A DNA stretch of 24,854 nucleotides from the IMG/VR virus record IMGVR_UViG_3300012202_000010, positions 1 to 24,854 of that record. One strand, 5' to 3'. The stretch's first letter is position 1. The number at the start of each line of letters is the position of its first letter. This DNA comes from a virus. The position numbers and the translations under genes were made by a program. This document shows positions 394 through 24,711 of the stretch, in pieces. The notes below the pieces were generated by a model. The model was not told the DNA's origin. It did no database searches and saw only the letters and a list, made by a program, of their open reading frames with translations.

Positions 394-728
394 TCCCCGT
401 GCCTGGCGGTGTGCGGGTGAGCGCGGCGGCGGTGTCAGTGGTCTCCTTTTCGGTGGGGTGCCTGCTGCTCACCGCCGCCGTCGTATATACCCCTGCCACG
501 CCCGTGGGGACGTTCCTGAGAGCCGACATGGTCTTGGCCGGCATTGCCCTAGCCATCCTGCCCGTTGCCATCCTGATGCCCCCTATGTCACCCTACGAGC
601 CTCGTATCCTAGGGATACCGGCATGGCTCGTGCGCCGCGCGTCAAAGGCAGCAAAGCAGGTGGTGGAGGAGCCGCGGGGCGGAACCGTGGTGGCCGCCCG
701 TCCCTCGACCCCATTGACCATGTGCTGA
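390..728 (+). CDS. Small membrane protein, two predicted transmembrane segments
   Basis: 112 residues, starting at a GTG that overlaps the stop of the tail tube gene (GTGA). A hydrophobic stretch at about residues 10-33 and a second at about 45-65 suggest two membrane segments, followed by a basic tail. No family recognised. The last roughly 106 bases overlap the next gene in another frame, so one of the two may be over-called at its end. An alternative GTG start lies three codons downstream. A membrane protein at this point of a tail operon is unexpected; it may be a small accessory gene. Confidence 0.45.
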   Translation: MIPVPGGVRVSAAAVSVVSFSVGCLLLTAAVVYTPATPVGTFLRADMVLAGIALAILPVAILMPPMSPYEPRILGIPAWLVRRASKAAKQVVEEPRGGTVVAARPSTPLTMC

Positions 729-874
729 TCGATGCCGTGCGGCGGGCCGCGGAGTCCGCCGGTCTGAAGGTCTCCAGCCTCATCCTCATCAACGTCAGGG
801 TCGGGCTCATCCTCGGCGCCAGCCGGGAGGCGACGCTCAAGCGGCTCCAGAGCAAGGCGAAGCGGCGTATATAG
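623..874 (+). CDS. Small basic protein of unknown function
   Basis: 83 residues from the ATG at 623. The N-terminal 25 residues are Arg/Lys/Gly-rich and probably disordered. The rest looks helical (DPIDHVLIDAVRRAAESAG, then a hydrophobic helix) and ends in a Lys/Arg-rich tail. This resembles small nucleic-acid or protein-binding phage products, but no family is recognised. It overlaps the preceding ORF by about 106 bases in a different frame. Its stop is followed by a 108-base AT-rich gap before the tail assembly chaperone. I prefer 623 to the in-frame 458 start because the upstream extension reads like out-of-frame translation of the membrane ORF. Confidence 0.5.
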   Translation: MARAPRVKGSKAGGGGAAGRNRGGRPSLDPIDHVLIDAVRRAAESAGLKVSSLILINVRVGLILGASREATLKRLQSKAKRRI

Positions 875-982
875 CCACGCGCATATTTAACGCCAATTTT
901 TGGCAATCTCAGTTTTCGTCCTTCTGCGACAATGATTTCATCGGGTAGTTTGTTTGCAAGGAAAACCAAAGGAACCACCGCC

Positions 983-1282
983 ATGCCAGGAAAAAGGACC
1001 GCGACCATCATGCTGGACGGGGACAGTTACACCGTCCATGCCTTCAACATCGACGAACTGGAGCAACTCGCCGGGATCATCTCCGACGACAACGTCCAGG
1101 CATCGGCGCGCTCGTTCATGATTCTCAAGCTGGCGCTGCTGCGCGCGGATCCCAGCGTCGGTGATGTCGGCTCTCTCGAGGCCACCCTCGACGAGGTGAT
1201 GGAGGCGTCGAAGGTGATCATGGATCTAGCGGGGTTGAAAGCCACCGCAAACCCTCAAACGGCGGTGACGCCCGCGGTCTGA
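983..1282 (+). CDS. Tail assembly chaperone, upstream product (lambda gpG-like)
   Basis: 99 residues from the ATG at 983, preceded by AAGGA about 10 bases upstream; an in-frame ATG at 932 has no ribosome site. In siphophages such proteins bind the tape measure and keep it soluble until the tail tube polymerises. The product is a small acidic, mostly helical protein (for example AFNIDELEQLAGIISDD). It sits directly before an overlapping -1 ORF and the tape measure gene, the standard G/GT arrangement. A canonical X_XXY_YYZ heptamer lies 25 bases before the stop. Assignment rests on size, position and the frameshift architecture rather than on a recognised sequence signature. Confidence 0.65.
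   Translation: MPGKRTATIMLDGDSYTVHAFNIDELEQLAGIISDDNVQASARSFMILKLALLRADPSVGDVGSLEATLDEVMEASKVIMDLAGLKATANPQTAVTPAV
1249..1272 (+). promoter_or_regulatory. Probable -1 programmed ribosomal frameshift signal
   Basis: AAACCCT at 1249-1255 reads A AAC CCT in the frame of the upstream gene and matches the X_XXY_YYZ slippery pattern exactly. After a 5-base spacer, GGCG-GTGA-CGCC (1261-1272) can form a 4-bp hairpin with a GNRA-type tetraloop. The -1 frame is open from at least 1201 to its stop at 1605, so slippage would give a fusion of about 207 residues. Spacing and frame are those expected for a G/GT tail chaperone pair. The short stem is a weakness. Confidence 0.6.
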
Positions 1283-5688: not shown

Positions 5689-6474
5689 ATGACAAAGCTG
5701 ATAAACCACAAATGGCTGATCTATCTTCTGTTCAACCAATCCGCCATTCCGATTTACGTCGGCTCGACGAATGACCTTAAACGTCGGCTGAAAGAACATA
5801 AGAAGGTTCTGGGATACAAACCGCAAGTGCAAGTTTTGGAAACTGGGGTAGGTGTCAGTCGCAACGATGCCGAATCAAAGTGGATCAAGCTTTATCGCCG
5901 CATCAATCCTGCTTTATCGAACAAATTGACGGACACTTTCGGTGGACGATGGGTTCAGACGCAAGCCTCTCGTGAACATTGGTCCATGATCAAGAAAGGG
6001 AAAAAGAAACCAGACGGATGGGGTGAGCGCATCGGTGCGGTAACACGTGGCAAACCGCATGATTGGACCCCAGAGGGACGTGAAGCAGCGGCCAAAACAC
6101 AATTCAAGCCAGGTCGGAAACGAACTGCCCAGGAAGATGAAAAACTTTATGAAGGTATCCGAATTATGTGGGATGCCATTCCGCATGATCAACGCTCGAA
6201 GATGGCAACAGCACGCAATAACGATGCATGGGCTCAACGGTCTCCAGAAGAACGATCAGCGATAGGCAAAAAGATCGCCAAGGCGCGCGAGCGCAACTTG
6301 TCACAGGAACGACGCTCCGAGATTTCTAGTCAGGCCGCGCGTGCCGCCGCAGCTAAGCCGGGCGCTCAATCCAGGCTTTCGTCCCAAGTCAAGAACTGGT
6401 GGGCATCGCTAACGCCAGAGGCGAAGGCTGCTTTCGTGAGCCGACGCGCAGAAAAGATTGCTGCGGCGAGATGA
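5689..6474 (+). CDS. Free-standing GIY-YIG homing endonuclease
   Basis: 261 residues. The N-terminal about 90 residues form a GIY-YIG nuclease domain: the GIY position is read as L10-I11-Y12, the YIG position as Y23-V24-G25 (IYVGSTNDLKRRLKEH), with the catalytic Arg at about 32 and the catalytic Glu at 62 (DAESKWIKLY). The rest is Lys/Arg-rich with repeated helix segments (SPEERSAIGKKIAKARERN, SQERRSEISSQAARAAA), resembling NUMOD-type DNA-binding regions of phage homing enzymes. Base composition is lower in GC than its neighbours, and the gene splits two tail genes that are normally adjacent. Its stop overlaps the NlpC/P60 ATG. Such enzymes cut a related phage lacking the insert and spread by repair copying; that role is inferred from the family. 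Confidence 0.88.
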   Translation: MTKLINHKWLIYLLFNQSAIPIYVGSTNDLKRRLKEHKKVLGYKPQVQVLETGVGVSRNDAESKWIKLYRRINPALSNKLTDTFGGRWVQTQASREHWSMIKKGKKKPDGWGERIGAVTRGKPHDWTPEGREAAAKTQFKPGRKRTAQEDEKLYEGIRIMWDAIPHDQRSKMATARNNDAWAQRSPEERSAIGKKIAKARERNLSQERRSEISSQAARAAAAKPGAQSRLSSQVKNWWASLTPEAKAAFVSRRAEKIAAAR

Positions 6475-7187: not shown

Positions 7188-10100
7188 ATGACCAACTTCT
7201 TCGGCGGCGGCGGCCGGAAGACAGCGCCGACACCGCCAGCCACCCAGCTGCGGGTCCAGACGGCCGTCGCCGGCACGCCGATCCCGATCGGCTGGGGTAC
7301 CAACCGCATTGCGCCTAATTTGATATATTACAACGACTTCCTGGCGACAGAGGTCCAGCAGAGTTCCGGTGGCGGCAAAGGTTCTGGATCTGGCGGCGGC
7401 GGGAAGGGTGGAGGAGGGGGAACCCAGACTAACTACTCCGCCACGGTGGTGTGCGGGCTGTGTGAGGGGCCGATCCTAGGCGTCGGCACGCAGGTGGGTA
7501 GCACGGCCGCCGTATCCGGCAATGTATTCGGAAGCCAGAACAACAACTTGTTCTTTAACGGCTTCAACAACCCGATAACGCAGGCGACGATCAAGACGCT
7601 CATAAGTCAGATCTTGACCAGTACCACCACGTCCCCCATCGGCAACGGCGTATGGGTGAGCGGCAACATCTCGTCCCTGGCCGCGCTCAACTTTGCGCTG
7701 TTCACCGGCAGTTACACGCAGACGGCGTGGTCCTTCGTGATGACGAACCACCCTAACGATGCGCGCGCCTACCGCGGCGTGGCCTATGTTGCGGCGGCAC
7801 CGTTCAACCTCCACACGTCGCCGGAACTCCCGGCGCTCAACTTCGAGGTGATGTTCGGGTTCCTCGAACCTTCCAACACGACGCTCGACGCGAACCCGCG
7901 TGACATCATCGTCGACTTCCTGACGAACAACAAATACGGACTCCAGTTCCCGTCCAGCCGCATCGGCGACACCAACCTCGTCACGCTCTACAACTACTGC
8001 CAGTCCGTCGGCATCTGGATGTCGCCTATCCTGTCGGCGCAGAAGGATGCCAACTCCTTCATGCAGGACATCCTCTACGGTTGCGTGGCGGAGGCGGTGT
8101 GGTCGAACGGCCAACTCAAGGTCGTGCCCTATTATGACTCGCCGGTCAGCGGACACGGCGCGTCGTTCACGCCCAACCTGTCGCCGATCTACGATCTGAC
8201 CGACGACGACTTCCAGGCCGGCGGCAACAACAGCTACTCGTCTCCGGTCATCGTCACCATCAAGGCGGTGGCGGACATCTACAACAACGTCAAGGTCCAA
8301 TATCTCGACCGCAACTTCAACTACGCGGGGGCGGCCGGTTCGACGCCGGACTACAACCCGACGGTCGTCGAGGTGAAGGACGACGCCTTGATCCAGCAGT
8401 ACACGTTGCGCGCGCGGGACACGAAGCAGCTCGACCTGTTCTGCTACGGGCCTGCCGCGCAGCAGTGTGCGCTCCTCCAGCTCGGCCGCGAGCAGGTGAT
8501 CACCACCTACCAGTTCTCGCTCGGGGCAAAGTTCGTCCTGCTGGAGCCCATGGACCTGGTGACGCTGACGGACGTGGCGCTCGGGCTCAGTCGCAAGCTG
8601 GTGCGCATCAAGGAGATCACCGAAAACCAAGACTACACCCTCACGTTCCTCGCCGAGGACATGCTCATCGGCTCGGCATCGTCCCCGCTGTTCGGTGCGC
8701 AGGCAGGCTCCGGGTTCGTCCTCAACAGCAACATCGACCCGGGCGTGACGCTGCAGCCGTTCTTCTTCGAGCCCACGGACCAGCTCGCCGGAGGCCTCGA
8801 GGTGTGGATGGCCGTCACTGGCGTCAACCTAGCGACGTGGGGCGGCGCCAACGTCTACGTCAGCTACGACGGGATCAACTACCAGTTCTCCGGCCAGCAG
8901 CTCGGCCCGACGAGGATGGGCGTTACCACTGCGACGCTTCCGCCTGTGACCCAGGCGACGTCTCCACCCACGATTGACTCGTCCAGCACGCTGCCCATTA
9001 ACTTGACCGAGAGCGGATCGCAACTCATATCCGCCACGCAAGCCGACCTGCTCGGGTTCGCCACGCTCTGTTACGTGGGCGGCGAGTTCCTGGCGTACCG
9101 CGACGCGACGCCGACCGGGGCAAACTCCTACAACCTGACAACGCTCAACCGCGCCGGATATGGGACGACCCCGCAGACGGTTCCATCCGGAACGACGTTC
9201 GTGCGCATCGACGCGGGAGTGTTCCGCATCCCGTTCACGCAGGACCGCATCGGGCAAACGCTGTTCATAAAGCTGGTGAACTTCAACCACTATGGTGCCG
9301 GGCCGCAGACGCTGGCCAGCGTGTCGCCGTACACCTACACGATCGTCGGGACAGCGCTCGTTTCACCGCTGCCGGACGTGCAGAACTTCACCACGAACTA
9401 CCAGAGCAACATCACGCTGTTCGCGTGGGACGAGATCAGGGACTTTAGGAACCCGATCGACTACGAGATCAGGCGCGGTGCCACCTGGGATTCCGCCCAG
9501 GTCATCGGCCGCTACCTCCACCCTAACGTTCCCGCGATCGGTTCGTCAGTCGGCGGCACGCTGTACCTCATCAAGGCGCACTGCCAGCCCATATCCGGAT
9601 TGGACGTGTACTCGGCAGATGCGGCAACGATCTCGATCGTGAGCGGCAGTTCGGTGATCCCGCTCAATATCGTCAAGAGCTTCGACGAGTTCTCCGGTGT
9701 CACGGGAATCCTGACAGGCACGTTCGGTGGCAGCGCCTACAACAACAATGGCACCATCGAGACGTTCGGGACCGGCGACCTCTACGCGGTGCCGGACCTC
9801 TACGGATTGCTCGACTTCTACAACTTCGCGTTCGGTTCGGTCCCTAGCGACGTTTACACGATCCCTAACGTCTACATCATCCCGGATTTCTACTTCATCA
9901 ATACGTCCCTGGTGGTGACCGGCACATACACCGCCCCGACCTCGCATTTCATCAACGTCGGCCGCGTCGTCGGGTGTTTGGTGGACGTCTCGTGGGTGTC
10001 CGAAGGAATTCCGATCGGGCAGAACATCTTCTCGTGGACCGACGTGTTCTCGATCACGGACATCTTCTCGACATCGGCGAACGTGTTTATCTCGGCTTTC

Positions 10101-10616
10101 CCGAACATCAACGTGTCGTCGGATGGCGTGTTTGACGGCGACGTGTTCGCGATCACTGACATCTACACCGTGCCGGACATTTACCAGTTCAGTATCACGT
10201 CGACGGGGTGGCGTCGCTACCGGGCCGGGTTCTACGTCGGCAGGTCGTTCGCGATGCAGATGTTCCTCCAATCGGTCGACCCTAACACGATCGCCGCGGT
10301 GAGCGCCTTCTCGTATGCGGTGCACATCCCATCGAGAATCGACCACTACATCGGTCTTGCTACGCCGAGCAGTCCGGGCGGCGTCACCGTCACGTTCACG
10401 TCGGACGGATCGCTGGTGGCTGCGGCGTTCAACGGTGGACCCGGTGGAGGGCCGTCGGTGCCTGGACTCCCGACGTGGCAGGCGACGATAACCAACGAGA
10501 TGGCCGGTGATCTCTTGACCGTCACCGCTCTCTCCTTGTCATCTGCCATCGTGACCACTACCAATGCAGGCAGCCCCGTCGCCAGGACGGTCAACATTGA
10601 GTTCGCGGGGTACTGA
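7188..10616 (+). CDS. Large tail-tip / host-specificity protein (gpJ- and GTA gp15-like)
   Basis: 1142 residues, the largest gene here. It would form the tail tip that contacts the host surface. The N-terminus (GTPIPIGWGTNRIAPNLIYY) followed by a Gly/Lys/Ser-rich linker at about 60-80 and ATVVCGLCEGPI is typical of J-type tip proteins. Residues about 400-490 (AAQQCALLQLGREQVIT, LLEPMDLVTLTD, and so on) match the Phage-tail_3 hub region. The C-terminal half holds fibronectin-like or receptor-facing beta segments and two clusters of an aromatic/acidic hexapeptide at 864-905 and 946-1002. AAGGA lies 13 bases before the ATG, rather far. The position after NlpC/P60 is standard for this tail class. 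Confidence 0.85.
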   Translation: MTNFFGGGGRKTAPTPPATQLRVQTAVAGTPIPIGWGTNRIAPNLIYYNDFLATEVQQSSGGGKGSGSGGGGKGGGGGTQTNYSATVVCGLCEGPILGVGTQVGSTAAVSGNVFGSQNNNLFFNGFNNPITQATIKTLISQILTSTTTSPIGNGVWVSGNISSLAALNFALFTGSYTQTAWSFVMTNHPNDARAYRGVAYVAAAPFNLHTSPELPALNFEVMFGFLEPSNTTLDANPRDIIVDFLTNNKYGLQFPSSRIGDTNLVTLYNYCQSVGIWMSPILSAQKDANSFMQDILYGCVAEAVWSNGQLKVVPYYDSPVSGHGASFTPNLSPIYDLTDDDFQAGGNNSYSSPVIVTIKAVADIYNNVKVQYLDRNFNYAGAAGSTPDYNPTVVEVKDDALIQQYTLRARDTKQLDLFCYGPAAQQCALLQLGREQVITTYQFSLGAKFVLLEPMDLVTLTDVALGLSRKLVRIKEITENQDYTLTFLAEDMLIGSASSPLFGAQAGSGFVLNSNIDPGVTLQPFFFEPTDQLAGGLEVWMAVTGVNLATWGGANVYVSYDGINYQFSGQQLGPTRMGVTTATLPPVTQATSPPTIDSSSTLPINLTESGSQLISATQADLLGFATLCYVGGEFLAYRDATPTGANSYNLTTLNRAGYGTTPQTVPSGTTFVRIDAGVFRIPFTQDRIGQTLFIKLVNFNHYGAGPQTLASVSPYTYTIVGTALVSPLPDVQNFTTNYQSNITLFAWDEIRDFRNPIDYEIRRGATWDSAQVIGRYLHPNVPAIGSSVGGTLYLIKAHCQPISGLDVYSADAATISIVSGSSVIPLNIVKSFDEFSGVTGILTGTFGGSAYNNNGTIETFGTGDLYAVPDLYGLLDFYNFAFGSVPSDVYTIPNVYIIPDFYFINTSLVVTGTYTAPTSHFINVGRVVGCLVDVSWVSEGIPIGQNIFSWTDVFSITDIFSTSANVFISAFPNINVSSDGVFDGDVFAITDIYTVPDIYQFSITSTGWRRYRAGFYVGRSFAMQMFLQSVDPNTIAAVSAFSYAVHIPSRIDHYIGLATPSSPGGVTVTFTSDGSLVAAAFNGGPGGGPSVPGLPTWQATITNEMAGDLLTVTALSLSSAIVTTTNAGSPVARTVNIEFAGY
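9777..9902 (+). repeat. Hexapeptide repeat cluster 1 in the tail-tip protein
   Basis: Residues 864-905 of the tail-tip protein read as seven consecutive hexads in one register: DLYAVP, DLYGLL, DFYNFA, a degenerate FGSVPS, DVYTIP, NVYIIP, DFYFIN. The consensus is [DN]-[aliphatic/Phe]-[Tyr]-x-[hydrophobic]-[Pro or variable]. DNA copies are not identical, so this is a protein-level repeat, not a recent DNA expansion. Confidence 0.75.
10023..10193 (+). repeat. Hexapeptide repeat cluster 2 in the tail-tip protein
   Basis: Residues 946-1002 contain two triplets of the same hexad: NIFSWT, DVFSIT, DIFSTS, then after a 21-residue spacer DVFAIT, DIYTVP, DIYQFS. Here Phe often replaces Tyr and Thr replaces Pro. 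The triplet-of-hexads unit (18 residues) therefore occurs four times in the protein counting cluster 1. Confidence 0.75.
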
Positions 10617-11860: not shown

Positions 11861-13135
11861 ATGTCGCAGTCCGCCGTCATATTGCCTGGGTCGCCGCTCG
11901 CCGGAAGTACGATGGTTGGCGACATCAACGCCGCGTGGGCAGCGATCATCTCCAAGTTCTCCGGCACCGTCGCGCCGACGCTCGGTCCTGGCGGCAGCGG
12001 CGCGCTCGTCGAGAGCCAGTGGTGGCTGGACACGTCGACCACGCCCCACGTCCTGAGAGTTCACGACGGCGCGCAGTTCGTTCCGCTGCTGACGCTGGAC
12101 ACGACCAACCACTTCTCGCAACCGCCGCAAGCATTGCGCAACATCCTGATGGACAACGGCAGCTTCGAGGTGTGGCAGCGCGGGGCCGGATCGTCTGCAT
12201 CGATCGCCGTAGGCGCGTCATCGACGGCCTACACGGCGGACAGGTGGTACATCACGACGGGAGCGAATCAGGCATCCGTGGTCGCGGCGGTGACGGGACT
12301 CACGAACGCGTCCAACCTCGCTGGAAAGATCACCCGCAACAACGCACAGACCGGCGTTACCGCCTACACCTTCGGCTTTCCGCTCGACACCGACGAGGTG
12401 GTGCGGATGCGCGGCAGCAAGGTGACGATGAGTGCGTTCTTCAAGGCGGGTGCGAACTGGTCGCCGACGGCCGGCACGATTGTAGGAACGCTCTACGTCG
12501 GCACGGGCGCGGTGGCGAAGCGTGGTGGCGGGTTCACCGGCGAAATCAGCGTCGTGTCCATGAGCACCAACATCGCGCCGAGTGCAGGGCCGACCGGAAA
12601 CTCGGCGGTGAGCGCCGCGGTGGTGCCGACGAACGCGACGCAGGGCGAACTCCAGTTCACATGGACGCCGGTCGGTACGGCTGGCGCGGACGACTCGATC
12701 ACCCTGGACGACGTGCAGGTCGAGATCGGCGTGTTCGCCAGCCAGTTCGAACGGATGCCGTTCGACCTCATCCTGCAGAAGTGCAAGCGGCACTTCTGGA
12801 AGACGTTCCTATATGGGACTGCGCCGGTGACCAACGCGGGAGCTAACACCGGGGAGATACAGGACACTATTGGGAAGGCGGGCGCAACAGCCCTCGGTTT
12901 CGTCGTGGCGGTTCGTCACCCAGTCTCGATGCGAGCATCCCCATCAGTGACGACGCTCAACCCGTCGGCAGCAAATGCGCAAGCGAGATTGGAGACAGGA
13001 ACCCCTGGCGATATGAGCGCCACAGCTACCGCCAACCTCAATTCAGAAACCATAACGGTCACGGCGACAGGAAACGCTAGCGGAACGGTTGGCGATACTG
13101 GCGGTGTCCATCTAATCGTTGACGCGGGGATCTAG
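11861..13135 (+). CDS. Tail fibre / carbohydrate-binding structural protein, paralogue A
   Basis: 424 residues from the ATG at 11861, with GGAG 8 bases upstream. Residues 1-85 form the shared N-terminal module (GDINAAWAAIISKFSG, LGPGGSGALVESQWWLDTS, HDGAQFVPL). Residues about 95-300 form a jelly-roll-like module beginning DNGSFEVWQRGAG and YTADRWY and closing with SITLDDVQVEIG, a pattern I know from carbohydrate-binding-like domains in phage structural proteins. The C-terminal 120 residues start with CKRHFWKTFLYGTAP and are beta-rich. The whole protein aligns end to end with the next gene. Probable role: receptor binding or fibre decoration. Confidence 0.7.
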   Translation: MSQSAVILPGSPLAGSTMVGDINAAWAAIISKFSGTVAPTLGPGGSGALVESQWWLDTSTTPHVLRVHDGAQFVPLLTLDTTNHFSQPPQALRNILMDNGSFEVWQRGAGSSASIAVGASSTAYTADRWYITTGANQASVVAAVTGLTNASNLAGKITRNNAQTGVTAYTFGFPLDTDEVVRMRGSKVTMSAFFKAGANWSPTAGTIVGTLYVGTGAVAKRGGGFTGEISVVSMSTNIAPSAGPTGNSAVSAAVVPTNATQGELQFTWTPVGTAGADDSITLDDVQVEIGVFASQFERMPFDLILQKCKRHFWKTFLYGTAPVTNAGANTGEIQDTIGKAGATALGFVVAVRHPVSMRASPSVTTLNPSAANAQARLETGTPGDMSATATANLNSETITVTATGNASGTVGDTGGVHLIVDAGI

Positions 13136-13136
13136 C

Positions 13137-14402
13137 ATGTCGCAAGCTCCCGTCATCCTCCCCGGTTCCCCGCTCACCGGCGCTGCTGCCGCTGGCGACA
13201 TGAACGCCGCATGGGCGGCCATGATCTCCCTGTTCTCGGGGGCGGCTGCCCCGACGCTTGGGCCGGGCGCGTCCGGCGCGCTGGTGGAGGGGCAGCCGTG
13301 GCTCGACACGTCCCTGTCGGTCCACGTGTGGAAGGTGTGGGACGGCACGACTTGGTGCTTGCACGCAGCGATCGACCCTGCCAGCCACTCGGCGACGCCG
13401 CCGCTGTCATGGCGCAACATTATCGGCGACAACGGCGGCATGGAGGTATGGCAGAGGGGAGCGGGTTCGAGCGCCAGTTTCGCGGTCGGCGCATCGTCGA
13501 CGACCTACACTGCCGACAGATGGTACTACCAGAACGGGGCCAACCAGGCCTCCGTCATCGCCGCCGTCACCGGGTTGACGACCAACTCCAACCTCGCCGC
13601 CAAGATCACCAGGAACAACGGCCAGACCGGCACTACCTTCGTGGTGTTCGCATTCCCGCTCGACACCGACGAAATCATCAGGATACGGGGCAAGTTGATA
13701 AGCATCAGCTTCGTGGCGAAGGCAGGCGCTAACTGGTCGCCAGCCAGCGGCACCTTGACTTGCTTCCTGTTCACTGGAACTGGCGCCGTCGGAAAGCGCG
13801 GGACGGGTGCCTTCACCGGAGAGGTCCAGGTCTTCGGATCCGCCATTAACATAACTGCCGGCTCCCAGGTGTCATCGAACCTGGCGTCAGCTGCCATCGT
13901 TGCCGTCCCAGCCAACGCCACGCAGGCAGAGGTGACGTTCGCGTGGACCCCCGTGGGGACTGCTGGCGCGGACGACTCGATCACGATCGACGATGTGCAG
14001 CTCGAGGTCGGGACGACGACGCCGTTCGAACGAGTTCCACTGGAGAGGTCGCTGCTGGGATGCAAACGGCATTTTGCAAAGACGTTCGCCTATGGTACTG
14101 CGCCGGCGCAGAACGCTGGAGTGGTTGGTGCGCTCGGTGCGAACACACAGGTGGCCACCTCCGACGTGTCGTGGAACTGGAACTTCCCGGTATCGATGCG
14201 AATCAATCCAGTCATCACGACCTACAACCCATCGGCCGCAAACTCCAGTGCGCGCAACGTTACCGGAGCCGCTGACGTGGCGATCAGTGTTGACCCCAAC
14301 ACCGCTTTGAGCCCAGATCGGGTATTCATCGAGACAACCGCCACCGTTGCTGCCCAGAACAGCAACATATACGTCCACGTTTCAGCAGATGCTGCTATTT
14401 GA
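13137..14402 (+). CDS. Tail fibre / carbohydrate-binding structural protein, paralogue B
   Basis: 421 residues from the ATG at 13137, one base after the previous stop; GGGGA lies 6 bases upstream inside the previous gene. The protein is collinear with paralogue A: GDMNAAWAAMISLFSG at the N-terminus, GGMEVWQRGAGSSASFAVG and YTADRWY in the middle, SITIDDVQLEVG, CKRHFAKTFAYGTAP, and VSMRINPVITTYNPSAAN in the C-terminal domain. The N-terminal and jelly-roll parts are most alike and the C-terminal part is more diverged, as expected for a tandem duplication followed by receptor-side change. DNA identity is visibly lower than protein similarity, so the duplication is not recent. Confidence 0.7.
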   Translation: MSQAPVILPGSPLTGAAAAGDMNAAWAAMISLFSGAAAPTLGPGASGALVEGQPWLDTSLSVHVWKVWDGTTWCLHAAIDPASHSATPPLSWRNIIGDNGGMEVWQRGAGSSASFAVGASSTTYTADRWYYQNGANQASVIAAVTGLTTNSNLAAKITRNNGQTGTTFVVFAFPLDTDEIIRIRGKLISISFVAKAGANWSPASGTLTCFLFTGTGAVGKRGTGAFTGEVQVFGSAINITAGSQVSSNLASAAIVAVPANATQAEVTFAWTPVGTAGADDSITIDDVQLEVGTTTPFERVPLERSLLGCKRHFAKTFAYGTAPAQNAGVVGALGANTQVATSDVSWNWNFPVSMRINPVITTYNPSAANSSARNVTGAADVAISVDPNTALSPDRVFIETTATVAAQNSNIYVHVSADAAI

Positions 14403-15799: not shown

Positions 15800-16417
15800 A
15801 TGACGTTCGACCAACTCGAGGCCGACTACACCAATGACCTAGCCACCATGAAGACCACCGCGCATGACGCCGAACTTTCCAGCGTAGCGAGGGTACTGTT
15901 GGCGAGCGTCGGCCGTTTCAAGAAGGTCCAGGCAGGGTGCGGCGTCCCGGCTTTGTGGTTGATGCCTGTCTTCGAACGAGAGGGACCATCCTTCGACGCT
16001 TACTTCGGCAATGGTGACCCACTCTCGCACCCGACAACCCACGTGCCCAAGGGGCGCGGTCCGTTCTCAACGTGGGAGGACGGCGTCATCGATTCGTTGA
16101 AGCTCGACCACATCACGGCATGCCCCGTATGGACCTGGGAGCGCGCCTGCTACTATTGGGAACTATGGAACGGTTTCGGACCCAGGCTTCACCACGGACG
16201 CCCCAGCGGCTACCTATGGGCTGGGACGAGCATCTACCGGGGCGGCAAGTACATCGCTGACGGAGTCTGGAGCCGCGGGACATTTGATCATCAACTCGGC
16301 ACGGTGGCGATCGCCAAGAAGCTGGCCACCATGTCTCCAGAGTTGGCATCCGGGTTCGTCACCACGGAAAAGTCATTGACTGTTGCTGCGGAGACACATG
16401 CCCAGCAAGCGGCCTAG
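15800..16417 (+). CDS. Probable phage lysozyme / endolysin
   Basis: 205 residues from the ATG at 15800, with GAAGAGG about 8 bases upstream; in-frame extension upstream overlaps the exported protein gene and looks out of frame. It has no signal peptide or membrane segment, so a holin is needed for export. The core LWLMPVFEREGPSFDAYFGN, HVPKGRGPFSTWEDG, WERACYYWELWNGFG and YLWAGTSIYRGGKYIADGVW matches a family of phage lysozyme-like proteins I recognise; E59 or E61 is the likely catalytic acid. It should cleave peptidoglycan at the end of the lytic cycle. Two holin-type genes follow after the barrel gene, which supports a lysis role. Confidence 0.7.
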   Translation: MTFDQLEADYTNDLATMKTTAHDAELSSVARVLLASVGRFKKVQAGCGVPALWLMPVFEREGPSFDAYFGNGDPLSHPTTHVPKGRGPFSTWEDGVIDSLKLDHITACPVWTWERACYYWELWNGFGPRLHHGRPSGYLWAGTSIYRGGKYIADGVWSRGTFDHQLGTVAIAKKLATMSPELASGFVTTEKSLTVAAETHAQQAA

Positions 16418-16463
16418 TGTAGGGTGCCCTGCAAACCACACCGCTTCAGAGGAAGGACAACCC

Positions 16464-17192
16464 ATGAAGAAGCTCATCATCGCAACCGCCGCGCTGCTCT
16501 GCTCCACCAGCGTTTATGCGGCCGATCTAAGGGTGCCGCCGCCCCAGTACAAGGCACCGGCGGCTGTTGAAGTCTACGATTATTTCAACGGCTTCTATGT
16601 CGGTGGGCATGGTGGCGTCGGTTGGGACCGCGGCTCGGGAACCGCATCCGACCCGTTCGGTAGCATGGACTTCAACACGGCGCCGTTCGGAGCCATCGGT
16701 GGCTTGCATGCCGGCATCGGCACCCACTTTGGCGGCAACTTCTACGTCGGCATTGAGGGCGACGGTGACATCGCGACGATGGACGGAGACGTCAAGAACC
16801 CCGGCTTCATCGGCAACATCAACAGCAAAAGCCGATGGCTGGCTTCGATCCGCGGCCGGTTCGGCTTCATCCTTGCTCCCAACCTCATGGCCTACGGAAC
16901 GGCCGGCTGGGGTTGGTCCGGGTCTGAGTTCATCGTGACGGGGACCGACGGCTCGCAATTCTCGACAAAGCCGACGCTCAACGGCGCTGTCGTTGGCGCC
17001 GGCCTGGAATACGCCCTCAGCCGTAACTGGGGTCTCGGAGTTGAGTATCGTCATTATTTCCTTGGCGATGTTCACACGGGAACGACAGGCGTTGTCTGTA
17101 GCGGCAACGAATGCACCGGTCCCATCCCGGTCGGTGCCGATATCAAACACAATATCAGCGCGACCATAGTGCGGCTGAGCTATCACTTCTGA
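16464..17192 (+). CDS. Omp25/RopB-like outer membrane beta-barrel protein
   Basis: 242 residues from the ATG at 16464, preceded by a strong purine-rich site (AGAGGAAGGA). Signal peptide MKKLIIATAALLCSTSVYA, then ADLRVPPP and a short proline-rich linker typical of Rhizobiales porin-like proteins. The barrel shows alternating strands: NGFYVGGHGGVGWD, GGNFYVGIEGDGD, SRWLASIRGRFGF, MAYGTAGWGWSGSE, LEYALSRNWGLGVEYRHYF, and a C-terminal strand ending in ATIVRLSYHF with the terminal Phe needed for BAM insertion. It is likely a host-derived moron changing the surface of the infected cell. A terminator follows, so it may be a self-contained unit, although I see no convincing promoter. Confidence 0.85.
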   Translation: MKKLIIATAALLCSTSVYAADLRVPPPQYKAPAAVEVYDYFNGFYVGGHGGVGWDRGSGTASDPFGSMDFNTAPFGAIGGLHAGIGTHFGGNFYVGIEGDGDIATMDGDVKNPGFIGNINSKSRWLASIRGRFGFILAPNLMAYGTAGWGWSGSEFIVTGTDGSQFSTKPTLNGAVVGAGLEYALSRNWGLGVEYRHYFLGDVHTGTTGVVCSGNECTGPIPVGADIKHNISATIVRLSYHF

Positions 17193-21043: not shown

Positions 21044-21279
21044 GTCGATTGCGCCCCGTCGCGTTTTCGAATGTTATCCTGCCTCCAGTATTCGCTTTCG
21101 ACAGCATCCAGGTCGTTGACGATTGACTCTGCAAGCGCGAGGCACTTGTTCCACTGCGTGCCGAACCCCTCATAGCCGCAGGCTGGACATCCTGATCCCC
21201 GATCGGACGCGTGCATGATGACGCCAGCCACGACTGCGACGCGCTGATTTTTGTTTGTGAAGAGATGGTTCAGGCTCAT
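21040..21279 (-). CDS. Small protein with CxxC motif
   Basis: 79 residues from the ATG at 21279, which overlaps the RecT-like stop (ATGA); the end overlaps the next gene. A CPACGYEGFG motif in the middle and one more Cys (WNKCLAL) suggest partial metal binding, followed by a helical end (AESIVNDLDAVESEYWRQD). No family recognised. The longer frame to 21486 runs through the RecT-like gene and is out-of-frame noise. Confidence 0.6.
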   Translation of the reverse strand: MSLNHLFTNKNQRVAVVAGVIMHASDRGSGCPACGYEGFGTQWNKCLALAESIVNDLDAVESEYWRQDNIRKRDGAQST

Positions 21280-22481
21280 GATCCAACCTTCCCCAGCGCA
21301 TCCTGGCACGCCGCCATCTGCTCCTTGTCGAGAGGGTTGGCGAGGCCGTTGCGGATGGCGCGTTCGGTGTTCCAGCGCTCTTTGGCGCGCTCCTGGCTGG
21401 GGGCAGCATCCATCCAGACTAGCGCGTATCCAACGTAGCTGGCCGAACTCTGCCGGTTCCACGGAGTCGGGAACGCTGCTGTCCATGTGTCGAGGCGCGG
21501 AGGGGACGACACGCTACTGGACATGTCGCTCCCATCACCAGTAGTCTTCCGGGTTCCCTCCGCTACCGTCCCTTCGTCGGGACGGGTCTGTTTCCGGGGT
21601 GCCCGCTTGGTCCCGGATGACATATGGGTTTCCGTAGGCCCGCCAGCCTTGGTAGGAGACCCAGGAGAGGCTTTCTGGTCCTTGGGCTGGTTACTAACCG
21701 TCTCGACATCCGGTTCACCAGCGGGCTCCCTACGGCTTGCTCCGACGCACCCTGGTCCGGAGACTATACCACCGTTCCACTCCTCTACCGTTCCGGCGGT
21801 CTTGTCCGGTACCCCCTCCCCGTTCCCGCCGAGGGGGTTGGAGATGCGCTCGTACTCCCGGTGCTCGATCATCTTCGGGTTGTCCACGACCTCGTCGCGG
21901 AAGTAGGTGCCGAGCAGAACGTCGGGGAAGTATCGCCGGCACAGCGCGCGTCCGGCGTAGTAGCAGAGTTGCTGATCGGGGTCGGTCTTCCATAGCGGGC
22001 TGTTCTTGGGGCTGATCTTGCCGACCTCCGGCGTCGTGTATTCGACGACCTCTTCATCATCCACATGCAAGCACGTGGCCGACGCCGTGCACCGCCGCCT
22101 GTCCCCCTCCCCGTCGTGGCGGTACTTGATGCGCCCCTTGATCGGAGCCTTCATGTTGATGACGGCGGTGGATATCTGCGCCATGTAGCAGAGCGTCCCG
22201 CTGACGACGAACGACAGCAGCGCCACCTTGAACGGGTCCATGCGCCACCCCAGCGCGTCGCTGACGACGTGCAGACACGTGGCCGGCTTCCCCTGCAGGT
22301 GCTTCGGCATCGTCGGGTCGAGCGCCATCATCTTCGCCCACTCCATGATCTCGCCGACGTTCCTGAAGATTATCCCATAGGGTTGTCCAGCGCCTTGCCC
22401 CATCGGGATCAATGCCGTGCGCTCGCGGTCGAGCTTGGATTCGATGAGCGCCGTGCCGCGCTCGGTGGACTGGTCGGTCAT
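21276..22481 (-). CDS. RecT-like single-strand annealing protein
   Basis: 401 residues from the ATG at 22481 (GGAG 10 bases upstream; upstream in-frame starts lack a site). RecT-type proteins coat single-stranded DNA and anneal it to a homologous partner. The N-terminal about 220 residues fit: FRNVGEIMEWAKMM, CLHVVSDALGWRMDPFKVAL, YMAQISTAVINMKAPIKGR, and WKTDPDQQLCYYAGRALCRR near the core end, a pattern I know from rhizobial phage RecT proteins. Residues about 230-340 are a Gly/Pro/Ser/Thr-rich linker, and the last 60 form a helical domain (RAIRNGLANPLDKEQ). A RecE-like nuclease lies three genes upstream, a usual partner. Confidence 0.75.
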   Translation of the reverse strand: MTDQSTERGTALIESKLDRERTALIPMGQGAGQPYGIIFRNVGEIMEWAKMMALDPTMPKHLQGKPATCLHVVSDALGWRMDPFKVALLSFVVSGTLCYMAQISTAVINMKAPIKGRIKYRHDGEGDRRRCTASATCLHVDDEEVVEYTTPEVGKISPKNSPLWKTDPDQQLCYYAGRALCRRYFPDVLLGTYFRDEVVDNPKMIEHREYERISNPLGGNGEGVPDKTAGTVEEWNGGIVSGPGCVGASRREPAGEPDVETVSNQPKDQKASPGSPTKAGGPTETHMSSGTKRAPRKQTRPDEGTVAEGTRKTTGDGSDMSSSVSSPPRLDTWTAAFPTPWNRQSSASYVGYALVWMDAAPSQERAKERWNTERAIRNGLANPLDKEQMAACQDALGKVGS

Positions 22482-22638
22482 GGTGGCGGTTCTCCATCTG
22501 TTGGGCAGGTCGCCCGTCCCCGGTAACTTGCTGAGGGCCACGCATTCAGCCGCGTGATGAATCCCGGTTGACCTCCCTTCAGGAAACGCAAACGGCTGTT
22601 GCTGGGACGCGGCGACCTTAGATCAAGCAAACAACGGT

Positions 22639-23145: not shown

Positions 23146-23543
23146 TAATGCGCCTCCCTGCGGAGATGGTCGTGACCGCAGACCTGGGCGAGCACGATGC
23201 AGTGTTCCCGCTGGCTCACATCGATCTGCCAGCCTTCGGGCGGCGGCTCGACCGTGCGCTGGTTCCACCCGGTGAAACCGAACATTTCGGCAATCGTGAA
23301 TGCCGCAAATGGATTGGGATATTTCGATCCCGGCACCGATACCGACAGATGCCGGTACACGATCCCGTCGGCGTGCGTATAGGAGAAGACCGCCAGGTAG
23401 GTGTCGAAATGAGCGACGAAGTTCGGATCATCGCCGGGCGTCATCTGACCGGGACGACCGGGGTGATAGTGATGCGTGTCCGCGTAGGCTAGGATGCGTG
23501 CCGCCGTTGCTTTGGCTTCATCGTCGATGATCAGCGCGCGCAT
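23145..23543 (-). CDS. Conserved-looking protein of unknown function
   Basis: 132 residues from the ATG at 23543, with GGAGG 5 bases upstream and a 1-base overlap with the RecE-like stop. It contains several His and aromatic clusters (AYADTHHYHPGRPGQM, HFDTYLAVFSYTHADGIVYR) and a C-terminal CIVLAQVCGHDHLRR. It looks globular, and I recall similar proteins of unknown function in rhizobial phages. The His-rich parts could bind metal, but no catalytic motif is certain. Confidence 0.65.
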   Translation of the reverse strand: MRALIIDDEAKATAARILAYADTHHYHPGRPGQMTPGDDPNFVAHFDTYLAVFSYTHADGIVYRHLSVSVPGSKYPNPFAAFTIAEMFGFTGWNQRTVEPPPEGWQIDVSQREHCIVLAQVCGHDHLRREAH

Positions 23544-24538
23544 CACCGCCTCCCATAGTTGTAGCCCATTTCCTCAGCCATCAGCTCCTCGGGCGGTTCG
23601 AACTCCTCCCACGGCTTGTCTGACCCGAATTTATCCATACAGTTTATGTAATTCTGGAGTCCGCGGTTCACCTTGGCCGCGCCGGTTTCGAAGATCGCGC
23701 TGCCAGGCGCGCCGTCCATCCCCGGCGTCATCGAGAACGAGCACGTCGTCGGGAATCCGTTCTTCTGGACGAAGATCCATTGCCAGGCGTAGCGGATGTT
23801 ATCGGCCAGAAACTGATCTAACCACTCCTCGGACGGAACTGGTCCTTCGTGGGCATAAAACGTACCAGCGTCGACCATCCTAGGGACATGTGCCAGACCG
23901 TCGATGTAGTGCGAGGCTTGAGCGTCGTAGTGGTAACGCTCGATCGCCTGCCGGCAGATTCGCTTGAAGTTGTCGTCGTAGATGTTCTCAACAGTCTTCA
24001 GATCACCGTTGGCCGCTAGCATGTAGCCGGAACGCTCCATAATCTTGAGATAGTCGAACCGGCCCTTGAGACGTACTCCCTCGCGCTCCCAGAACACCGA
24101 CACCTCGCCGAACCCTCCCCTGAACGCCTCGGCGAGGAAAGGATTGCGGAGGATCGCTCCTGCCCACTCCGCGATGCCATCGTATTCGTCAGCCTTCAGC
24201 ATGACTCGGTTGATCTTCTTCGCCTCGGCTTTGGCAGCCTTGGTGGCGACGCCCTTCATCCCAGACGACAGCGCATCGTCAACGGTGGGACCACGCAGGA
24301 ACACCTCGTCAAACTCATCCTTGCCTTCCAGGACGAGCTTATGAAGGGCGTGCCCCATGACGTGGTGCGGCTTCTCCTTGCGCTTGGGACGTTTCGGGTT
24401 CATCTCCGACTTCCACCAATAGGTGGAAGGGTTGGTAAATAAATCCTTGATGTCGCCGGAGCCCAACCCGGGGTCACCGAGGTATTGCTCGAAAGGCAAG
24501 CCGAAGTGCAGACCTAGGGGAATGAGTGCGCCGGTCAT
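23543..24538 (-). CDS. RecE-like PD-(D/E)XK exonuclease
   Basis: 331 residues from the ATG at 24538, where GGGAG lies about 10 bases upstream; a GTG at 24562 has no site. RecE-type enzymes resect double-stranded ends 5'-3' and leave 3' tails for a RecT-type partner. Visible motifs: a helix HHVMGHALHKLVLEG, E145, GRFDYLK with D162, GDLKT with D179 and K181, and YHYDAQASHYIDGL (Y204, Q207, Y211) as the usual helical motif after the core. The first 60 residues (GLGSGDIKDLFTNPSTYWW) are also typical. Its start overlaps the stop of the small membrane gene upstream. Confidence 0.8.
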   Translation of the reverse strand: MTGALIPLGLHFGLPFEQYLGDPGLGSGDIKDLFTNPSTYWWKSEMNPKRPKRKEKPHHVMGHALHKLVLEGKDEFDEVFLRGPTVDDALSSGMKGVATKAAKAEAKKINRVMLKADEYDGIAEWAGAILRNPFLAEAFRGGFGEVSVFWEREGVRLKGRFDYLKIMERSGYMLAANGDLKTVENIYDDNFKRICRQAIERYHYDAQASHYIDGLAHVPRMVDAGTFYAHEGPVPSEEWLDQFLADNIRYAWQWIFVQKNGFPTTCSFSMTPGMDGAPGSAIFETGAAKVNRGLQNYINCMDKFGSDKPWEEFEPPEELMAEEMGYNYGRR

Positions 24539-24711
24539 CTGGCTGCCACTCCCAATGCGCACGCGGCCATTATCAGCATCAGGACAATGCAGGTCGTTGC
24601 CTTCGGATAATTTGTAGAATCGGACTGTGCTTTTTCAAGAAACAATCCAGCTGATATCGCGAACATCAATGACACCAACTCAACGATTGTCGCGATGAGT
24701 GCTTGGATCAT
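24535..24711 (-). CDS. Small membrane protein
   Basis: 58 residues from the ATG at 24711 (GGAG 9 bases upstream), with its stop overlapping the RecE-like ATG (ATGA). Two hydrophobic segments at about 3-24 (ALIATIVELVSLMFAISAG) and 40-56 (CIVLMLIMAACALGVAA) separated by a short polar loop. No family recognised. The coupled end and good ribosome site support it although it is short. Confidence 0.55.
   Translation of the reverse strand: MIQALIATIVELVSLMFAISAGLFLEKAQSDSTNYPKATTCIVLMLIMAACALGVAAR

Follow-up and report, generated by a model that had tools for sequence, protein, structure and literature searches.

The window analysed here is a 24,854-nucleotide stretch, presented as a 24.9 kb IMG/VR virus record (IMGVR_UViG_3300012202_000010) with a GC content of 60%. 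Genes for a tape measure protein, a DUF2460 protein and a Gp84-like hub lie 5' of the gene under study (Table 1). Its product, called a tail-tip protein in the first-pass annotation, matched PF13550 (Phage-tail_3; E 1e-19, 71.1 bits, cut-off 23), PF23666 (Rcc01698_C; E 3e-15, 56.9 bits, cut-off 27) and phrog_1101 (tail protein; E 1e-85). Predicted viral structures, some of them named 'Tip attachment protein J', matched with an E of about 1e-18. With both Pfam domains above their cut-offs and a tail gene module as context, the protein is of the GTA/lambda-J type, and its identity as a tail-tip protein was upheld by the Pfam domains, phrog_1101 and the predicted-structure matches.

The hub gene and the tail tip gene are separated by a GIY-YIG endonuclease-like open reading frame (5689-6474, +), which may encode a homing endonuclease. 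A pair of similar, neighbouring tail fibre genes (11861-13135 and 13119-14402, +), each matching phrog_4492, is followed on the 3' side by an OmpA-like outer-membrane beta-barrel gene (16383-17192, +; PF13505, E 2e-12), whose product, which we take to be Lom-like, could alter the host surface. The opposite strand carries a recombination module encoding a RecT-like annealing protein (21276-22541, -) and a DUF3799 PDDEXK nuclease-like protein (23543-24562, -). The tail tip protein also has a glycine-rich stretch close to its N-terminus, SSGGGKGSGSGGGGKGGGGG (residues 59-78; window 7362-7421, +), slightly beyond where the disordered iris/penetration region is described in the RcGTA megatron (residues 22-37).

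Table 1. Coordinates of the tail tip gene, its C-terminal domains and its hexad triplets in the window.
Feature	Window position	Residues	Strand	Basis
Tail tip (megatron/J-like) gene, 1142 aa	7188..10616		+	PF13550, PF23666, phrog_1101
FN3 domain	9345..9650	~721-821	+	VIA-align
Jelly-roll discoidin/galactose-binding-like sandwich, loop carrier	9669..10328	~828-1047	+	VIA-align
Loop A, triplet 1: DLYAVP DLYGLL DFYNFA	9777..9830	864-881	+	
Degenerate spacer FGSVPS, in register	9831..9848	882-887	+	
Loop A, triplet 2: DVYTIP NVYIIP DFYFIN	9849..9902	888-905	+	
Loop B triplet: NIFSWT DVFSIT DIFSTS	10023..10076	946-963	+	
Loop C triplet: DVFAIT DIYTVP DIYQFS	10140..10193	985-1002	+	
C-terminal H-type-lectin/gp53-like domain	10329..10613	~1048-1142	+	Structure comparison, homologue profiles

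The four 18-residue triplets of a hexapeptide that the first-pass annotation described were all recovered with the same boundaries, and the first cluster does run in a single register, the spacer FGSVPS maintaining the six-residue phase. Residues conforming to [DN][VILF][YF] occupied positions 1-3 in 12 of 12 hexads and position 5 was hydrophobic in 11 of 12. This part of the proposed consensus stood; the proline or threonine assigned to position 6 was present in only 7 of 12 hexads and in none of the third hexads of the triplets. At an exact spacing of six residues the whole protein contains eight motif pairs and four motif triples, whereas none of 20,000 residue shuffles exceeded two pairs and one triple. 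The motif matches a thirteenth time at NVFISA (residues 965-970), out of register and within the next strand. The hexad pattern is a real, conserved protein-level repeat.

For residues 720-1142, AlphaFold2 modelling from 40 sequences reached a mean pLDDT of 71.2 and yielded three domains: FN3, a confidently modelled jelly-roll sandwich and, last, the C-terminal domain. Values of pLDDT below 50 were found at residues 862-907, 945-962, 985-991 and 993-1003, which coincide almost exactly with the hexads, and additionally in two short segments of the FN3 part. A second model, of a Rhizobium-type relative built with 81 sequences, had a mean pLDDT of 85.6 and fell below 50 solely at residues 224-241, 279-284 and 290-293, which are its two triplets. 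Because both models fell below a pLDDT of 50 at the triplets, the solenoid, prism and calcium readings offered in the first-pass annotation are not established.

Structure comparison by VIA-align related the FN3 domain to other FN3 domains (Z about 10) and to lambda J (8iyk and 8k35; Z about 8.5). The sandwich gave Z scores of 8.5-10 over 120-130 residues with a phi812 baseplate protein, MAM, Eph ligand-binding and discoidin I structures; these moderate scores indicate a shared fold only, and the model points to a jelly-roll of the discoidin/galactose-binding type. Searching the 81 members against Pfam at E 0.01 yielded no discoidin or F5/8C family. VIA-align of the Rhizobium-type model returned a list filled by FN3 domains and so did not probe the sandwich, and profile searches of the PDB matched the FN3 part only, yielding no solved homologue of the loop-bearing domain. 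The C-terminal domain resembled the phage gp53 tail fibre domain 4mtm (Z 8.8, rmsd 2.1 over 75 residues). Gp53-like_C profiles matched 11 and H_lectin profiles 5 of the 81 homologues, with no direct H-lectin/gp53 profile match in the window protein itself. The hexads had been taken as one repeat element; they proved instead to be inserted separately into three of the sandwich's loops (A, B and C), and thus do not constitute a domain of their own.

Close relatives of the C-terminal region were seven viral contigs with 64-96% identity. Both first-cluster triplets were kept in all seven and the third triplet in all six that extend that far; the fourth triplet, in loop C, was absent from two (L006 and L008), and the second loop A triplet was limited to the window's clade. 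Copy number therefore varies, with a duplicated loop A triplet across the window's clade and an additional loop C triplet in some of its members, and a check for such variation suggested by the first-pass annotation gave a positive answer. The Bradyrhizobium phage ppBdUSDA122-1, aligned at 26%, has DVFGPS DVFAPT DVFHAG where the window protein has its fourth triplet and TDVLGSQDILG where it has its third. Three contigs (L015-L017) have a single hexad triplet at each of two sites, which in L015 are NILADV NVLTDT DILFGG and NVLSVT DILSQQ DILGSQ. Rhizobium phage RHph_Y3_1 has DIFELV DWFSVE DYFLSL and DLFTRA DWFDVP EYFGLA, with near variants in 15 Rhizobium-type contigs.

A scan of genome contigs returned only two weak matches. 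A wider scan found at least 578 candidate stretches encoding relatives, and many of the best 80 of these at least 578 carry a heptad form, such as NFDDAKG, that also occurs in isolates infecting Roseobacter (CRP-406) and Pelagibacter (HTVC202P). Distant J proteins had triplets of two kinds, some built from hexads of the form D-phi-[F/D/Y]-xxx and others from heptads of the form [LN]-F-D-D-x-x-G; in 56 heptad triplets, aspartate occupied position 3 in 152 of 168 heptads and glycine position 7 in 114 of 168. The distant J proteins with comparable triplets belong to metagenomic phages and to phages of Rhizobium, Bradyrhizobium, Roseobacter and Pelagibacter.

The triplets were placed using alignments of 12 to 81 sequences. 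Loop A precedes the strand 'GxYxF...DLG', loop B follows the next long strand, and loop C of the window protein precedes a strand starting near 'WxxYxxGxY'. Among the 81 aligned homologues, triplets of period 6 were detected in 42 A loops and 37 B loops and triplets of period 7 in 38 and 37, where some loops fit both periods and shuffling each loop led to an expectation of 3-4 homologues. The enrichment of periods 6 and 7 over loop shuffles was about tenfold in both loops; period 5 showed no excess and period 8 little. With the pattern used, 8 of the 81 homologues had no triplet in either loop A or loop B. The loop A triplet was not clear in L018 and L020, and loop A was empty in the cultured Rhizobium phages RHph_I4 and P106B. 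Only the Bradyrhizobium type and part of the window's clade had triplets in loop C. Inserts unrelated to the triplets occupied loop C in P106B (about 200 residues) and cyanophage MED4-117 (about 75 residues), suggesting that loop C of the J domain is a general insertion site.

The DNA copies of the triplets were only 48-69% identical to each other, and since they have diverged this far the repeat is mainly one of protein. The sole DNA tandem repeat was a weak one in the third triplet (10024-10071; 18 bp, 73% matches), and a DNA-level tandem repeat as the cause of the pattern was ruled out by the divergence of the copies. Identity to the window protein was higher at hexad positions 1-3 than at positions 4-6 in L003 (28/36 v 19/36, Fisher p 0.05), L005 (29/36 v 18/36, p 0.01), L006 (20/27 v 9/27, p 0.006) and L008 (25/29 v 9/27, p 8e-5). 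Over these four relatives, identity was 74-86% at positions 1-3, 33-53% at positions 4-6 and 63-74% in the remaining domain, a descriptive comparison of four relatives only in which defining the hexads on the window sequence gives a slight bias toward conservation of positions 1-3. Diverged DNA copies together with conserved positions 1-3 agree with the earlier claim of protein-level selection. Judged from sequence, the pattern fits a conserved scaffold at positions 1-3 and variable, exposed residues at positions 4-6.

The window protein resembles the megatrons of RcGTA (Rcc01698) and roseophage R4C in the gene order DUF2460, Gp84-type hub, megatron and in the combination of PF13550 with Rcc01698_C. 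These megatrons make up a tail tip that is trimeric and bears several sugar-binding modules (PMC7296036, PMC10276861), and they have a fibre-binding domain at the end, whereas the window protein ends in FN3, discoidin-like and H-lectin-like domains with hexad loops. Like lambda gpJ (8iyk, 8k35, 8xci), it combines a hub and FN3 architecture with a C-terminal beta-sandwich, and phrog_31, 'central tail fiber J', matched 65 of the 81 homologues. Lambda gpJ, whose loops bind the receptor, differs in having an Ig-like receptor-binding domain that follows a helical shaft and a beta-prism, and the available portion of its published account does not mention hexad triplets (PMC11101478). Discoidin I (2wn2, 2w94) likewise has a discoidin domain followed by an H-type lectin and aligned over model residues 112-423. 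This Dictyostelium protein differs from the model by an rmsd of about 8 A across both domains, with 7-8% identity. We know of no hexad loops in discoidin I. Left-handed beta-helix hexapeptide repeats share the hexad period and the 18 residues per three hexads; the window pattern differs from them in being D-phi-[YF] with one or two triplets per loop, and Pfam Hexapep did not match the window protein at E 0.1 or E 1, in agreement with the mismatch to this repeat reported earlier. The window protein is a variant of the known tail tip protein J type. No description of the triplets was found in the open-access papers searched, a search of incomplete coverage, and the triplet-loop module appears undescribed within that literature.

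On balance, we favour the reading that the triplets are modular receptor-contact inserts carried by the loops of a discoidin-like sandwich, which lies distally in a J/megatron tail tip protein and is followed by an H-lectin-like domain; this reading is probably, though by no means certainly, correct. Since comparable blocks occupy loops A and B in most of the 81 homologues, the triplets are probably interchangeable and receptor-facing, and the receptor-facing location proposed in the first-pass annotation is plausible by analogy. Recurrence at loops A and B in distant proteins and the optional and duplicated copies count for this reading, as do the stronger conservation of positions 1-3 than of 4-6, the domain folds and the kinship with J; the unclear loop A triplet of L018 and L020 and the eight homologues lacking a triplet in both loops count against it. 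By comparison with known tips, the hexad loops are most likely receptor-contact loops that would become ordered in the trimer or upon binding; in the models, the low pLDDT would also fit plain flexible loops. The hydrophobic and aromatic residues at positions 2-3 may form a small scaffold packed inside its own loop or, in the trimer, against the partner loops, and the variable residues would point toward the host surface, where a glycan or an outer-membrane protein is the probable target. Swapping, doubling or losing loops would then change adhesion and leave the domain undisturbed. The account of lambda gpJ assigns a central role in receptor binding to bottom loops L1-L4 of the C-terminal domain and describes opening of the tail tip when gpJ binds LamB (PMC11101478); several sugar-binding sites are present in RcGTA and R4C tail tips (PMC7296036, PMC10276861).

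The triplets could instead order only between chains, for example as a short three-chain beta-prism or as interlocked loops about the threefold axis, and stabilise the fibre tip rather than bind a receptor. J/megatron proteins are trimeric, lambda gpJ has a trimeric beta-sheet prism (PMC11101478, PMC7296036), and monomer prediction breaks down precisely at the triplets. However, loops A and B leave from and re-enter one sandwich, and the insertion sites are empty or otherwise filled in some relatives, unlike a structural stalk, which leaves this explanation a minority one.

Somewhat less likely again, each triplet would be one full turn of a triangular beta-coil with a hexad per side, the coils of loops A and B stacking as a mini-solenoid and the chain returning to its exit point on the sandwich. 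One coil of a left-handed beta-helix is 18 residues, or three hexads, and triplets do predominate. Loops A and B also tend to share a period within a protein (25 strictly 6,6 and 18 strictly 7,7, with no strict 6/7 mismatch), an agreement that is suggestive. It is not independent evidence, because only about two period changes occur on the tree, and physical coupling of the loops was dropped as its cause for the same reason. Against the coil, finer labelling revealed one period mismatch (L128), looser counting gave runs of four in many loops, Pfam hexapeptide matches were absent, and pLDDT was below 50 at the triplets though the remainder was modelled well. The single-turn coil and the inter-chain prism are possibly forms of the same loops.

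That the aspartate-rich triplets are calcium-binding loops is improbable: although Asp and Gly abound in the marine heptad [LN]-F-D-D-x-x-G, none of the window hexads contains more than one acidic residue, position 3 is Y or F, not D, and no metal-site motif was identified. Functionless low-complexity expansion through slippage, for which the weak 18-bp repeat in the loop B triplet could speak, is very improbable given the diverged DNA copies, the conserved positions 1-3 and the conservation of triplets at the same sites in distant phages.

The receptor-contact reading might extend further, such that loop-grafted hexad or heptad triplets are a standard exchangeable tail-tip module on a discoidin-like domain, coil-like or ordered in the trimer, with constant scaffold and variable host-facing positions, whose duplication or loss retunes receptor binding; we advance this generalization tentatively and regard it as doubtful. 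The triplets are a widespread short motif whose monomer structure AlphaFold2 fails to predict. For environmental phages, few of whose receptors are known, a recognisable repeat that occupies constant loops of the J tip domain marks the probable receptor-contact surface, and this module, which occurs in Pelagibacter, Roseobacter and Rhizobium phages, would provide a direct handle on host-range testing.
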